Shown here: positions 55,552 through 60,561 of the stretch, one piece after another | Position numbering within the stretch: position 1 is the first letter of the stretch | Layout: every line of letters begins with the position of its first letter | Source of the DNA: Kordiimonas sp. SCSIO 12603 | Lineage (GTDB): Bacteria; Pseudomonadota; Alphaproteobacteria; Sphingomonadales; Kordiimonadaceae | Assembly (NCBI RefSeq): GCF_024398035.1 | Contig: NZ_CP073748.1 | Span: 1,897,520-1,961,519 of the forward strand | Length of the DNA stretch: 64,000 nt | Direction: 5' to 3' | The notes under the pieces: generated by a model | The model's database searches: none | Told to the model about the DNA's origin: nothing | The model's input: only the letters and a program-made list of their open reading frames with translations | Translations under genes and position numbers: made by a program

Positions 55552-56784
55552 TTACATACCAACTACGAAAGAAACATTAGTGGTGCCGGAACCGCCAACA
55601 TTATATGTGGCAAATGTTTTAGCGCCGCCAATTTGCATATCACCAGCTTGGTCACTTGTTTGTCTGTAGGCATCAAGCAGCATGCGAACACCTGTTGCAC
55701 CTACGGGATGACCTAGGCCGATAAGACCGCCAGACGGATTCATTGGAAGTGAGCCTGTGCGCTCTAGCATACCGTCTTCAATAGCTTTCCAAGCCTCACC
55801 AGGGGCGGTAATGCCAAAATGCTCAATCGCCATATATTCTGTGATGGTGAAACAGTCGTGGGTTTCAATACCGTCCAGTGCTTCAGGGCCGGAAATGCCA
55901 GCTCGCTTGTATGCGTCCGTAATGGCTTTTCTCGTCCAAGGTAGAATGTGCCCATTTGATCCCTTGGAAGCAGCAAATTTTGTCGCAAGCTCCATAGGCG
56001 CAGTAGTGTGGCCCCAGCCTTTAATACGAGGAATGGCTTCAACGGGAATACCGTGTTTGTTAGCATAGTCTCGTGCTTTGTTTTCTGTCGCTAGGAATAC
56101 AACAGCAGCGCCGTCTGTCACTTGTCCGCAGTCATGGCGTCTCATCCAGCCTTCCACCACGGGGTTGGCATTGTCATCGGCTAAGAAACTCTCTTCTGTG
56201 AAACTCCAGTTACGACTTTGGGCATTGGGGTTTTGTTTACCGTTATCGAAATTCTTTTTTGCAATGGCGGCTAAGTGCTCACGCTTAAGACCGTATCTTT
56301 CTTCATATGTTTCTGCGAGGTCGGAGAACAGGGATGGCCACACATAGGTACGTCCGTCAGTTTCCTTGCCGGCCCATGCTGCGGTGCCCAAGTGGTTTGC
56401 AGCAATATTGCCGGGTGCATTCCGCATAAGTTCCACACCAAGCACGCAGGCAAGATCATATCGGCCTGCCTCCAGATCAGCCATAGCGGCCAGTGTGGCC
56501 AGTGAGCCTGAGGCACAAGCTCCTTCATGTCGAGATGTTGGAAGGCCTGCAAAATCAGCATGGATATGGCCCATAAAGCCGCCGAGCAAACCTTGGCTGG
56601 CGAACAGTTCACCAACAAAGTTACCAATATGAATGACTTCTACATCTTTTGCATCCAGCGCTGTTTTCTCAAGACCGGAGAGAACGCAATTCTGCATCAA
56701 CTCAAAAATTCCGAAGCCCTCGCGTGCCCAATTTCTTGAAAAATCAGTCATTTCCCCGCCGAGGATAAAGATGTCTTTAGCCAT
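55552..56784 (-). CDS. SCP2-type thiolase
   Basis: A 410-residue thiolase. The nucleophile is C90 (RHEGACASGSLA), the conserved HDCFTITE segment follows, and GLGHPVGATGVRM carries H359. The C-terminus TYNVGGSGTTN lacks the second Cys, as is usual in this branch (SCP-x/DitF-like). These enzymes cleave or form beta-ketoacyl-CoA, often with branched or cyclic substrates. It is divergent from the carotenoid oxygenase, sharing a 93-base control region that contains the 27-bp element. Confidence 0.85.
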   Translation of the reverse strand: MAKDIFILGGEMTDFSRNWAREGFGIFELMQNCVLSGLEKTALDAKDVEVIHIGNFVGELFASQGLLGGFMGHIHADFAGLPTSRHEGACASGSLATLAAMADLEAGRYDLACVLGVELMRNAPGNIAANHLGTAAWAGKETDGRTYVWPSLFSDLAETYEERYGLKREHLAAIAKKNFDNGKQNPNAQSRNWSFTEESFLADDNANPVVEGWMRRHDCGQVTDGAAVVFLATENKARDYANKHGIPVEAIPRIKGWGHTTAPMELATKFAASKGSNGHILPWTRKAITDAYKRAGISGPEALDGIETHDCFTITEYMAIEHFGITAPGEAWKAIEDGMLERTGSLPMNPSGGLIGLGHPVGATGVRMLLDAYRQTSDQAGDMQIGGAKTFATYNVGGSGTTNVSFVVGM

Positions 56785-56802: not shown

Positions 56803-56829
56803 AAAGTTACTTGCATAACAATACTTACT
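56803..56829. promoter_or_regulatory. Shared 27-bp operator candidate, copy 1
   Basis: It matches the element at 60434 in 24 of 27 positions; the last 16 bases (from CATAACAA on) are identical. Arms AGTTA (56805-56809) and TTACT (56825-56829) are inverted, with one mismatch, 15 bases apart. It begins 19 bases upstream of the SCP2-thiolase ATG and ends 48 bases before the oxygenase ATG, where a repressor could block one or both promoters. Confidence 0.7.
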
Positions 56830-56877
56830 GGTTCATACATTTGTCAATTGTCCTTTAATGATGAGGGGAGAAATCAC

Positions 56878-58344
56878 ATGGCAGTGGAACTTGTTAAAGA
56901 ATATGAAAGCTCGATCAAAGAGAATGATCACCCATATATGAATGGGCCGTGGGCGCCTGTGCATAAGGAATATAATATCACCGATATGGAAGTGATTGGG
57001 GAAATTCCAACGGATATTGATGGTGTTTATCTTCGTAATTCTGAAAACCCAGTGCATCAACCACTGGGCCGTTATCATCCATTTGATGCCGACGGCATGC
57101 TCCATATGATGAGCTTTAAAGACGGCAAAGCAGAGTACCGTAACCGCTTCATCCAAACCCGTGGTTTTAGGGCTGAACAAGAAGCTGGTGAAAGCCTTTG
57201 GGCTGGATGGACAGCATATCCGGTTAAATCCAAACGTATCGGTGAATGTGCTCAAGACGGATTGAAGGATGCCTCCTCAACTGATGTGGTAGTGCACGCA
57301 GGCAAGGTGATGACAACTCATTTCCAGTGTGGTGAAGGTTACAGGCTTGATCCATATACGCTTGATCAGCTTGGAATTGAAAGCTGGACACCGATTGAAG
57401 GAATTTCAGCGCACACTAAAGTGGATGAAAACACTGGCGAGATGATGTTCTTTAACTACGGAAAACATCCACCATATCTGCACTATGGTGTTGTAGGCGC
57501 TGATAATAAGCTGAAGCATTATATCCCTGTGGAAATTAATCGCCCAAGCCTTCCGCATGATATGGCCTTCTCTGAAAACTACTCAATTCTCAATGATTTC
57601 CCGATGGCATGGATACCTGAAATGATTGAACAGGATATTTTCATGCCGCGCTATGAGGCAGATAAGCCTTCTCGTTTTGGTATTGTGCCACGTTATGGTA
57701 ACCCGGAAGACGTTAAGTGGTTTGAGGCAAAGCCAACATATGTTCTTCACTGGCTCAATGCATACGAGGAAGGGGATGAGATCATCCTCGATGGCTATTT
57801 CCAGGGCAACCCAATGCCTGAACCACTGAAGGACCAACCAAAACGCTATGCGATGATGATGGCACTGGTTGATCTGAATTCTCTGCAGGCGCGTCTTCAC
57901 CGTTGGCGCTTTAACCTGAAAACAGGTGAGACAATCGAAGAAGATCTCGATGATGAAGTGCTTGAGTTCGGTATGTTTAACCAGAAATATGCTGGTAAGA
58001 AGTACCGCTATGCATATAGCGCCAAGCCCAAGAAAGGAATGTTCCTTTTTGAAGGGCTTGTAAAACACGATCTGGAAACGGGTGAGAAGCAAACCTGCAT
58101 GTTTGGTGAAGAACGTTACGGTAGTGAAGCACCATTTGTGCCGCGCATTGGTTCCAAATCAGAAGATGATGGCTATCTGGTTTCTTTTATCACAGATATG
58201 AAAGAGAACCGCTCTGAATGTGTGCTGATTGATGCGCAGAATATTGAAGCAGGGCCTGTATGCCGGATTATTCTTCCGCACCATATTTCAAGCGGTACCC
58301 ATGCAACATGGGCGAATGGGGAAGATATCCGCGCAGCAGGGTAG
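56878..58344 (+). CDS. Carotenoid oxygenase (carotenoid/stilbene cleavage dioxygenase family)
   Basis: ATG 56878 after GAGGGGAG gives 488 residues; an upstream ATG at 56800 lies within the operator and was rejected. The four iron-binding His are H179 (ISAHTKVD), H227 (LPHDMAF), H291 (YVLHWLN) and H475 (SGTHATWA). NPVHQPLGRYHPFDADGMLH is the family N-terminal signature. It cleaves a conjugated C=C bond with O2, giving aldehydes or ketones; the substrate (apocarotenoid, stilbene or similar) cannot be told. It is divergent from a thiolase, which suggests catabolism of the products. Confidence 0.88.
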   Translation: MAVELVKEYESSIKENDHPYMNGPWAPVHKEYNITDMEVIGEIPTDIDGVYLRNSENPVHQPLGRYHPFDADGMLHMMSFKDGKAEYRNRFIQTRGFRAEQEAGESLWAGWTAYPVKSKRIGECAQDGLKDASSTDVVVHAGKVMTTHFQCGEGYRLDPYTLDQLGIESWTPIEGISAHTKVDENTGEMMFFNYGKHPPYLHYGVVGADNKLKHYIPVEINRPSLPHDMAFSENYSILNDFPMAWIPEMIEQDIFMPRYEADKPSRFGIVPRYGNPEDVKWFEAKPTYVLHWLNAYEEGDEIILDGYFQGNPMPEPLKDQPKRYAMMMALVDLNSLQARLHRWRFNLKTGETIEEDLDDEVLEFGMFNQKYAGKKYRYAYSAKPKKGMFLFEGLVKHDLETGEKQTCMFGEERYGSEAPFVPRIGSKSEDDGYLVSFITDMKENRSECVLIDAQNIEAGPVCRIILPHHISSGTHATWANGEDIRAAG

Positions 58345-58361
58345 AGCTTCGACATAACAAT

Positions 58362-58400
58362 AAAAAAGGCTGGGACAGTTTTCTGCCCCAGCCCTTTTTT
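58362..58400. terminator. Bidirectional terminator between the oxygenase and the DUF1295 gene
   Basis: GGCTGGGACAG (58368-58378) pairs with CTGCCCCAGCC (58383-58393) around TTTT, flanked by AAAAAA and CTTTTTT. One plus-strand mismatch becomes a G-U wobble on the minus strand. It serves the convergent genes on both sides. Confidence 0.88.
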
Positions 58401-58416
58401 GTATCTGTAATATCCG

Positions 58417-59217
58417 TTAAGCGCTCTTACGTGGTGGCATCGGAATGAAGCCACTTGTTGATGCTTTGTAAGCTTCATACTCCGGATACTTTTTAGACAT
58501 ATGACGCTCGGTTAACGCTTTGCCGCTTACTTTCACAAGGAAGAAGGTCATCACGAGCGGGCTGAATACTGTGTAGATGCCGTATGGCGACGACAGGGCG
58601 ATAATAGTCAGGCCAATCCATACCATTGCGTCGCCGAAATAGTTGGGATGGCGTGTCCATGACCATAAGCCTTGTGTCATTAATTTGCCCTGGTTTTCAG
58701 GGTCTTTTTTGAAGGCTGTAAGCTGATGGTCACCAACAGCTTCGAAGAAAATGCCGATAAACCAGATGGCAGCGCCGATATAGCCGAACATTGTTGTTTC
58801 ATTGCCTTCAAGGCCAAGCATACCAAACTGAACAGGGAATGAGATTAGCCACGAAAGTACACATTGCATGCCGAAAACAAACCAGAGGCTTTTGATAATG
58901 AATGGTCCGTCACCACCGGCTTGCTGGCGCATTCTCACATAACGGTAATCTTCACCGTGAGGCAGGTTCCGTTTACCAAGATACAGGCCTAATCTTAAAG
59001 CCCAAATGCTCACCAGCGTTACCAGCAGTAGCTGCATTGGGTGGCCATTTGAATGGTTTATGTAAGTAACAACACCGGGTAGTGCGCATGCCGGACCCCA
59101 AAGAATATCGACGATGCTGGCATCTTTTTTAAAAATGCTGATGACCCAGAATGTCAGAAAAACGAGAGCCGAAATGCCGAGGCTTTCGAGCGCGATTGAT
59201 GTAAGTTGATCCGACAT
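58417..59217 (-). CDS. DUF1295-family membrane protein (steroid 5-alpha-reductase/methyltransferase-like)
   Basis: ATG 59217 gives 266 residues, 8 bases after AAAGGA and immediately after the thiolase stop. There are six or seven predicted helices. WGPACALPGVVTY, and the C-terminal GLWSWTRHPNYFGDAMVWIG with FFLVKVSGKALTERHMSKKYPEYEAY, are typical of DUF1295, related to steroid 5-alpha-reductases and isoprenylcysteine methyltransferases. It probably reduces or methylates a hydrophobic substrate. It forms an operon with the thiolase at 59219. Confidence 0.8.
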   Translation of the reverse strand: MSDQLTSIALESLGISALVFLTFWVISIFKKDASIVDILWGPACALPGVVTYINHSNGHPMQLLLVTLVSIWALRLGLYLGKRNLPHGEDYRYVRMRQQAGGDGPFIIKSLWFVFGMQCVLSWLISFPVQFGMLGLEGNETTMFGYIGAAIWFIGIFFEAVGDHQLTAFKKDPENQGKLMTQGLWSWTRHPNYFGDAMVWIGLTIIALSSPYGIYTVFSPLVMTFFLVKVSGKALTERHMSKKYPEYEAYKASTSGFIPMPPRKSA

Positions 59218-59218
59218 T

Positions 59219-60409
59219 TTAAATCCTTTCAATAATCATGGCCGAGCCTAAGCCAGCTGCGCCTGAAATAGCAACCATGCCCATAGTTTTATCTTGACGT
59301 TCAAGCTCATCGAGTAGTGTACAGAGGAGGATACCGCCCGTTGCCCCCATAGGGTGCCCGAGCGCGATAGCGCCGCCATTTACGTTTAATTTATCTCTGC
59401 TAATCCCAAGTTCCTGCATAAAGAGAAGGCATACCGCTGCATACGCTTCATTAAACTCAAACAGATCAATATCATTGGCCGACATGTCAGCTTTTTTCAG
59501 GCAATCCCTTGCAGCTTCAATGCCGCCGGTGAGAGAAAGAAGAGGATCGCCGCTTAGGTTGGAAACTGCTTTAATCTGGGCACGAGGTTTAAGTCCGGCG
59601 GCTTTTCCCGCATCAGCAGAACCAAGCAAGATTAAGGAAGCAGCATCAGCGAGAGCAGGGGCTGATCCTACATGATGAATATGGTTTACTTTATTATATT
59701 CCGGGTATGTGTGCAGGAATGTTTTATCTGCGGCTGATGAGTTCATGATATTTACGAGACTATCAAAACTCGCCAGTTTTTCAGCGGTGGTGTTGGGCCT
59801 TACTGTTTCATCGTGAGCAAAATGGCCATCATCAGTGCTTATAGATATGATTGAACGCTCAAAACGGTTTTCCGTTTCAGCGATGCCTGCGCGTTTTTGA
59901 GATTCCGCGGCGTAGGTATCGGCTTCCTCGCGTGTAATATCTGTTTTTGTTGCTACAAAATCAGCCGCTGACCAGAGCGGGGAAAAGGAGCAGGCTTGCA
60001 TAGTTGCCGGATCGCTGTAGTAGGGCCCAGCGTCGGAAAAAGGCGCAACCCGAGACATGCTTTCAATACCGCCTGCCAGTAACAACTTACCTGAAGTTGG
60101 CGCTTTGAGCGCTGCTATCTGACACGCATCAAGGCCGGAACAGCAAAAATTATTCACTGTCATCGCAGCGACGTCAGACGGGAGGTTTGAGGAAAGGGCG
60201 AGGGCTCGGGCAATATTCCCGCCTTGTTCGCCGGTTTGCGTGACACAGCCCAGAATAAGGTCTGAGATATGTAGTTTATCTGTATGCCTCATTTTGAGTG
60301 CATCAAGTAAAGTTTGCCCTAATTCTATGGGCTTGGTTTTTGTCAAGCCGCCACCGGGTTTTACAGCGCCGCGCCCAGTTCGGACACCATCATAAATATA
60401 CGCATTCAC
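59219..60409 (-). CDS. Acetyl-CoA C-acyltransferase (thiolase) with a Ser in place of the second catalytic Cys
   Basis: A 396-residue thiolase. The nucleophile is C89 in NNFCCSGLDA; FNEAYA and GGAIALGHPMGATGG (catalytic His) are present. Near the end, where the family has CxGGGxG with the proton-shuttling Cys, this protein reads ISGAAGLGSAM, with Ser. It would be expected to thiolyse poorly unless another residue substitutes. It heads an operon with the DUF1295 gene, and its upstream region has the second operator copy. Confidence 0.87.
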   Translation of the reverse strand: MNAYIYDGVRTGRGAVKPGGGLTKTKPIELGQTLLDALKMRHTDKLHISDLILGCVTQTGEQGGNIARALALSSNLPSDVAAMTVNNFCCSGLDACQIAALKAPTSGKLLLAGGIESMSRVAPFSDAGPYYSDPATMQACSFSPLWSAADFVATKTDITREEADTYAAESQKRAGIAETENRFERSIISISTDDGHFAHDETVRPNTTAEKLASFDSLVNIMNSSAADKTFLHTYPEYNKVNHIHHVGSAPALADAASLILLGSADAGKAAGLKPRAQIKAVSNLSGDPLLSLTGGIEAARDCLKKADMSANDIDLFEFNEAYAAVCLLFMQELGISRDKLNVNGGAIALGHPMGATGGILLCTLLDELERQDKTMGMVAISGAAGLGSAMIIERI

Positions 60410-60433
60410 TTAAATCTGCTCCCCTCAGTATTT

Positions 60434-60460
60434 TAAGTAACTTTCATAACAATACTTACT
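60434..60460. promoter_or_regulatory. Shared 27-bp operator candidate, copy 2
   Basis: Here the arms are perfect: AGTAA (60436-60440) and TTACT (60456-60460), 15 bases apart, with further symmetric matches toward the centre. It starts 25 bases upstream of the thiolase ATG on the minus strand and lies 101 bases before the tandem-HxlR regulator ATG on the plus strand. Position and near-identity to the element at 56803 point to binding by that neighbouring regulator, which is inference. Confidence 0.72.
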
Positions 60461-60561
60461 ATTCTCGTTAGAAGTCAAATAGAACTGTGCCCGACGTGGA
60501 CAAGGACCATTTTATCTATTAACAGATAGGGAAGAAGATGACCTTATGAGCCTGATATTTA

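Follow-up and report, generated by a model that had tools for sequence, protein, structure and literature searches.

The stretch of DNA analysed here, called the window, covers 64,000 nucleotides of Kordiimonas sp. SCSIO 12603 (NZ_CP073748.1, positions 1,897,520 to 1,961,519). It contains neighbouring genes for two thiolases, a carotenoid-cleavage-oxygenase family protein, a DUF1295 protein and a regulator with two HxlR domains, and a nearly identical 27-bp element in each of the two divergent intergenic regions (93 and 152 bp) of this locus (Table 1). The annotation of the window was checked against Pfam and NCBIfam. Because of the gene order, the second thiolase gene and the DUF1295 gene were regarded as one operon. 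Between the convergent oxygenase and DUF1295 genes (58345-58400) there is a stem followed by a T-rich stretch, which by eye has the look of a shared terminator.

Table 1. Genes, candidate operators and predicted promoters of the locus (positions in the window).
Feature	Position	Strand	Remarks
SCP2-type thiolase	55552..56784	-	Best NCBIfam match NF004936 (acetyl-CoA acetyltransferase); "SCP2-type" is the label of the original prediction and our own
Operator copy 1	56805..56829	+	25-bp core of the 27-bp element 56803-56829; between the SCP2-thiolase and carotenoid-oxygenase genes
Predicted sigma-70-type promoter, SCP2-thiolase gene	56818..56847	-	TTGACA, 18, TATTGT; -10 inside operator 1; consensus match, shuffle mean 0.6
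Carotenoid-cleavage-oxygenase family protein (RPE65 family)	56878..58344	+	Pfam/NCBIfam; four His aligned with LsdA
DUF1295 protein (steroid-reductase-like membrane family)	58417..59217	-	Pfam; directly behind thiolase 2
Second thiolase (acetyl-CoA C-acyltransferase family)	59219..60409	-	Pfam/NCBIfam
Operator copy 2	60436..60460	+	Within the element 60434-60460; between the thiolase-2/DUF1295 operon and the regulator gene
Predicted sigma-70-type promoter, thiolase-2/DUF1295 operon	60449..60478	-	TTGACT, 18, TATTGT; -10 inside operator 2; consensus match, shuffle mean 1.0
Tandem HxlR regulator, 310 aa	60562..61494	+	Two PF01638 domains, HxxC...CxxC after each; AlphaFold2 model

The first element is AAAGTTACTTGCATAACAATACTTACT and the second is TAAGTAACTTTCATAACAATACTTACT. 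The original prediction, made from the letters of this DNA, said that they agree at 24 of 27 bases, and direct reading of both sites confirmed it. The gaps from operator to thiolase start codon, measured as 18 bases for copy 1 and 24 for copy 2, agree with the distances given there; the opposite starts lie 48 bases (copy 1, oxygenase) and 101 bases (copy 2, regulator) away. Such identity had also been called unlikely by chance, and the shuffles bear this out: the best common 27-mer of the two intergenic regions matched at 24 of 27 positions, and each of 200 shuffled pairs gave only 15-19. With the 25-bp core, a pattern derived from these two sites themselves, and at most 3 mismatches allowed, exactly 2 sites were found in the 3.85-Mb genome (reversed control 0), and the 64-kb window gave 2 matches with a shuffled expectation of 0.00. 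A frequent and randomly placed motif, named beforehand as the result that would speak against the prediction, was thus not what the genome contained. A looser 21-bp pattern with at most 3 mismatches gave 41 matches in the same genome and 38 in the reversed control; it was exact only at the two operators, and 4 further matches had 2 mismatches. No second (paralogous) regulon was recognized in this genome, where the candidates were four weak matches (2-3 mismatches) at 1.43-1.45 Mb (L219) whose listed open reading frames (ORFs) resemble none of the nine query proteins.

HxlR/DUF24 dimers are known to bind a palindromic operator. The two operator copies agree with their own reverse complements at 12/25 and 16/25 positions, and the core kept across loci is asymmetric. 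This core was seen in 40 loci collected with the regulator as bait, which exclude the window itself and include its near twin G011. The window-derived 10-mer ACTTKCATAA occurred exactly 35 times in their 698 kb, against 2 in the reversed control, and outside it the kept bases were T at -2 (32/35), A at 14 (35/35), C at 15 (33/35) and A at 18 (29/35). The conserved heart of the site is therefore TnACTTKCATAA-n4-ACYnA. The arms AGTWA-N15-TTACT, by which the original prediction had defined the operator, are present in both copies of the window; across species the best-kept part is this asymmetric inner element and not the arms.

The relatives were drawn from 396 genomes of the order, with a family subset of 29. 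An HxlR-like match of some kind was present in 351 of the 396, and the full-length tandem protein in 52, plus G103 with split halves; in the association counts these are taken together as 53 genomes with the full regulator. In the 40 regulator loci the tandem HxlR genes adjoin oxygenase, SCP2-thiolase and DUF1295 genes; the order of these genes varies, as does the completeness of the set, and in L073 and L074 all three were absent from the stretch. A site with at most 3 mismatches was found in 4/29 family genomes, two sites each. One of these genomes is G058, where one of the two sites belongs to an unlinked DUF1295 gene and the site beside the regulator has 4 mismatches. G099, with a regulator of 54% identity, keeps the site at both positions, and an operator in a divergent region beside the regulator and target genes is found in the window and also in G011, G099 and G058. 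Together with the tandem HxlR gene and the gene set, the site recurs at many loci of the order, though not at every one, and it is also present in some other Alpha- and Gammaproteobacteria.

When the strict pattern TNACTTKCATAANNNNACNNA was searched in the 396 genomes, it matched at 44 sites spread over 32 genomes, with 3 matches for the reversed control, and 34 of the 44 lay within 10 kb of the regulator. It was present in 26/53 genomes with the tandem regulator and in 6/343 without it (Fisher p 1.5e-20, uncorrected for relatedness); genomes with a site and no full regulator number six, or seven if G103 is counted among them. A variant site, AGTAACTATTATAAACATACC, precedes the oxygenase gene at loci of the same genus whose tandem regulator has diverged (L058:9460, L061:9251, L063:8639, L071:8530), so the operators appear to drift.

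Some sites lie far from the regulator. In G058, which belongs to a related genus, the cluster has no DUF1295 gene. One such gene lies about 680 kb from the cluster and is preceded, at a distance of about 150 bp, by an exact site (L220:7823-8870); its product is 39% identical to that of the window over 233 aligned positions. The original prediction had tied the SCP2 thiolase, the oxygenase, the second thiolase, the DUF1295 protein and the regulator into one candidate circuit, and this proposal gains from the site at the unlinked gene, as it does from the recurrence of site and gene set in relatives. G015 has a site or sites far from the regulator, upstream of a second oxygenase gene (L221:6055-9590) whose neighbours are a CoA ligase gene, a tannase/feruloyl-esterase-family gene and a TonB receptor gene. 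In G027 two sites are more than 10 kb from the regulator: one precedes CoA ligase and acyl-CoA dehydrogenase genes (L223), and the other lies inside a 1044-aa open frame (L222).

The association was also examined with the oxygenase as bait. The 80 loci used, gathered by oxygenase alignment alone, are the best 80 of at least 567; they include Phenylobacterium, Sphingopyxis, Hirschia, Microbulbifer, Zhongshania and metagenome-assembled genomes (MAGs) labelled Burkholderiales. At least 3 of them (L111, L121, L156) repeat genomes already covered above, none with a site at 4 mismatches or fewer. A full tandem HxlR gene was present in 50/80. Sites with at most 4 mismatches were found in 15/50 loci with the regulator (reversed control 0/50) and in 4/30 without it (control 0/30), and at 5 mismatches the counts were 27/50 (control 3) and 7/30 (control 0). 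When only loci of 20 kb or more are counted, the numbers become 12/38 and 0/12 (p 0.02) at 4 mismatches, and 23/38 and 1/12 at 5. The tandem loci with a site at 4 mismatches or fewer include Hirschia (L147), Phenylobacterium (L173), Microbulbifer (L119) and a Woeseia MAG (L153).

Among 49 sites, 38 were start-proximal (random positions about 15%) and 23 lay in divergent regions (random positions 5%), and 1 had no nearby gene. Fifteen were upstream of a single gene, 10 oriented toward it and 5 away. TTGAC occurred 12-32 bp upstream of the operators, on either strand, 14 times across the 49 sites, where about 2 were expected. The predicted thiolase promoters in the window are consensus matches only, of a kind that shuffles yield 0.6 and 1.0 times per region.

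Direct tandem operator units at an 18-bp offset were seen at L043:13031-13073, L079:12058-12100 and L124:8973-9015. We speak of tandem units because the same-strand neighbours of 87 anchor sites peak at the 18-bp offset, with 12/31 matches (the L043 pair counted from both ends, and without a shuffled control). On the opposite strand there were 31 matches, the commonest offset being -18 with 4, likewise without a shuffled control.

The regulator matches PF01638 in two stretches (E 4.9e-30, 103.7 bits, cut-off 20.8), and its two HxlR domains are 37% identical over 93 residues. In a 16-member alignment of regulators H115, C118, C129, C132, H276, C289 and C292 are invariant and C279 nearly so, which suggests that each domain is followed by a zinc site. 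Confidence in the AlphaFold2 model is high (pLDDT 85.5, pTM 0.84). The top-ranked solved structures for this model are HxlR/DUF24-type proteins, each aligning with one domain, and the neighbours in PDB and Foldseek were PA1607, PA1374, HypR, YodB and HxlR. We conclude that the regulator is a variant architecture within the Pfam family PF01638. Of the nine HxlR-domain matches in its genome, one is a tandem gene. The tandem regulator query also matched 437 plasmid records; in 89 of them a single place covers 80% or more of the query, and the best rows include rhizobia, Cupriavidus and Streptomyces; because of these near-full matches, the tandem architecture extends beyond this gene cluster.

The identity of the two sites, their rarity, their recurrence with the regulator and gene set, and their overlap with promoter-like sequence were computed directly. 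We propose that the tandem HxlR regulator uses the two elements as its operators and would repress a local regulon through them, and we give this model as a whole a probability of roughly 0.78. The regulator probably binds both elements. Its single chain with two winged-helix domains is probably a covalent pseudo-dimer, which may read the 25-bp site with unlike halves, TnACTTKCATAA on the left and ACYnA on the right. Bound at both divergent regions, it would control four units, namely the SCP2 thiolase gene, the oxygenase gene, the thiolase 2-DUF1295 operon and its own gene, until a substrate or intermediate of the pathway releases it. Judged from sequence, this would be a local regulon under autoregulation, whose regulator is a double HxlR protein on a single chain with putative binding at both sites. 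Repression seems the likelier mode because each operator covers the predicted -10 of a thiolase promoter.

Several observations weigh against this model. The strict pattern was absent in 27/53 genomes having the full regulator, and only 15/50 tandem oxygenase loci had a site at 4 mismatches or fewer. From these two shortfalls it follows that either the sites diverge or the regulators differ. At that threshold, with oxygenase loci of all lengths, the difference between loci with and without the regulator is weak (p 0.07). The looser TTGNC is less enriched than TTGAC (26 seen, about 14 expected, at the 49 sites), and 10/49 sites lie inside mechanical ORFs. The strict pattern was chosen after the conservation in the 40 loci had been viewed, and the 25-mer used in most searches had three positions freed after sites in relatives had been viewed; part of the data thus served both to refine the motif and to test it, so the site tests are not independent. 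The genomes are also related, which inflates the counts.

The main rival keeps the same regulator and operators and changes the sign: the regulator would activate, with polymerase recruited chiefly to the oxygenase and regulator genes. The Bacillus subtilis HxlR is named an activator in its PDB molecule name, and copy 2 sits 101 bp upstream of the regulator start, which suits such a role. Bacillus subtilis HxlR is described in PMC7835342 as directly activated by formaldehyde, and this too makes activation possible and counts against repression. However, both thiolase promoters have their predicted -10 within an operator, and the clustering of TTGAC upstream of the operators, on either strand, fits occlusion, so we consider activation unlikely while taking it seriously. 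More improbable is that the elements serve another regulator encoded elsewhere and that the tandem HxlR gene adjoins them by coincidence. The 4/30 oxygenase loci that carry a site at 4 mismatches or fewer and have no full tandem regulator in the stretch could be read so, as could the 6 of 32 strict-pattern genomes without one; but those four loci are all shorter than 15 kb, the longer loci (20 kb or more) that lack the regulator gave 0/12 at 4 mismatches and 1/12 at 5, 26 of the 32 genomes do have it, and the genome of the window has one tandem HxlR gene among its nine HxlR-domain matches.

That the common element is a promoter (sigma-factor) sequence and no operator is very improbable. Both copies do hold the same predicted -10 (TATTGT) at equal spacing from a minus-strand TTGAC box, but there are only two copies in the genome, the conserved ACTTKCATAA lies mostly outside the predicted boxes, and the 15 single-gene sites point both ways (10 toward the gene, 5 away), whereas promoters have one orientation. 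Hardly credible at all is a recent duplication or mobile repeat that left two copies; their high identity would fit it, yet identity falls off at the element edges in the alignment, no further genome copies exist at 3 mismatches or fewer, and both positions keep the site in G099. Promoter element, duplication and chance repeat were all set aside.

The circuit probably serves a catabolic pathway, in which the oxygenase would cleave an alkene oxidatively and the thiolases would then carry out CoA-dependent breakdown. The oxygenase matches PF03055 (E 2.9e-123) and is the one oxygenase match in its genome. Its histidines H179, H227, H291 and H475 align with those of LsdA and are invariant in a nine-member alignment (A2); they are presumably the iron ligands. 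It scored far under the cut-offs of all three NCBIfam equivalogs matched (245/675, 228/800 and 198/650 bits), the last two being the lignostilbene dioxygenase equivalogs NF053778 and NF053780, and therefore no substrate was assigned. The neighbour genes in L043, L045, L047, L064 and L066 encode a CoA ligase, an aldehyde dehydrogenase, a DsbA-like protein, a nitronate-monooxygenase-like protein, a tannase/feruloyl-esterase and a TonB receptor, with no locus having all of them. This gene content suggests a pathway in which an alkenyl compound is taken up, cleaved oxidatively and then broken down in CoA-dependent steps. The substrate is perhaps a phenylpropanoid or an apocarotenoid, which is a guess.

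The same switch and site beside similar enzymes in other bacteria point to an unstudied breakdown pathway. If the model is true, a widely spread enzyme set gains a dedicated switch and a searchable DNA signature, and with this signature the genes still missing from the pathway (transporter, CoA ligase, esterase, DUF1295) can be gathered, which would narrow the choice of substrate. It would also provide a natural single-chain form of a regulator family known from dimers, in which asymmetric DNA reading by fused domains can be tested directly. The literature searched, of partial coverage and without most subscription papers, gave no published account of a tandem HxlR protein, none of HxlR with a carotenoid oxygenase, with or without a thiolase, none of HxlR with a direct-repeat operator, and no description of the enzyme set; papers that mention HxlR include PMC6771000 and PMC8879981. 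A bolder proposal, for which we would offer even odds, is that tandem HxlR proteins whose winged helices are each followed by a zinc-knuckle-like motif make up a regulator class of their own, single-chain pseudo-dimers on asymmetric operators, and that they run an uncharacterised pathway (oxygenase/SCP2-thiolase/DUF1295) which is widespread in Alpha-, Gamma- and possibly Betaproteobacteria. The operator alone could then collect scattered pathway genes, as with the DUF1295 gene of G058.

Compared with known systems, the oxygenase resembles the lignostilbene dioxygenase/apocarotenoid oxygenase family in its RPE65-family membership and in the four histidines aligned with LsdA, but differs by its scores far below the curated equivalog cut-offs. 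The regulator shares the winged-helix fold and PF01638 with the HxlR/DUF24 (MarR-like) regulators, such as HxlR, YodB and HypR of Bacillus subtilis. The norm of that family, as also described in PMC7835342, is a small single-domain chain forming a homodimer, and the nine solved relatives found by sequence have chains of 107-168 residues. In contrast, the regulator here has two domains in one chain of 310 residues, with HxxC...CxxC after each domain and an asymmetric operator core. The nearest parallel for two HxlR subunits on a single chain is the sensor HxlR-cpYFP-HxlR, described in the same paper (PMC7835342); that sensor was engineered, whereas the regulator of Kordiimonas is natural.

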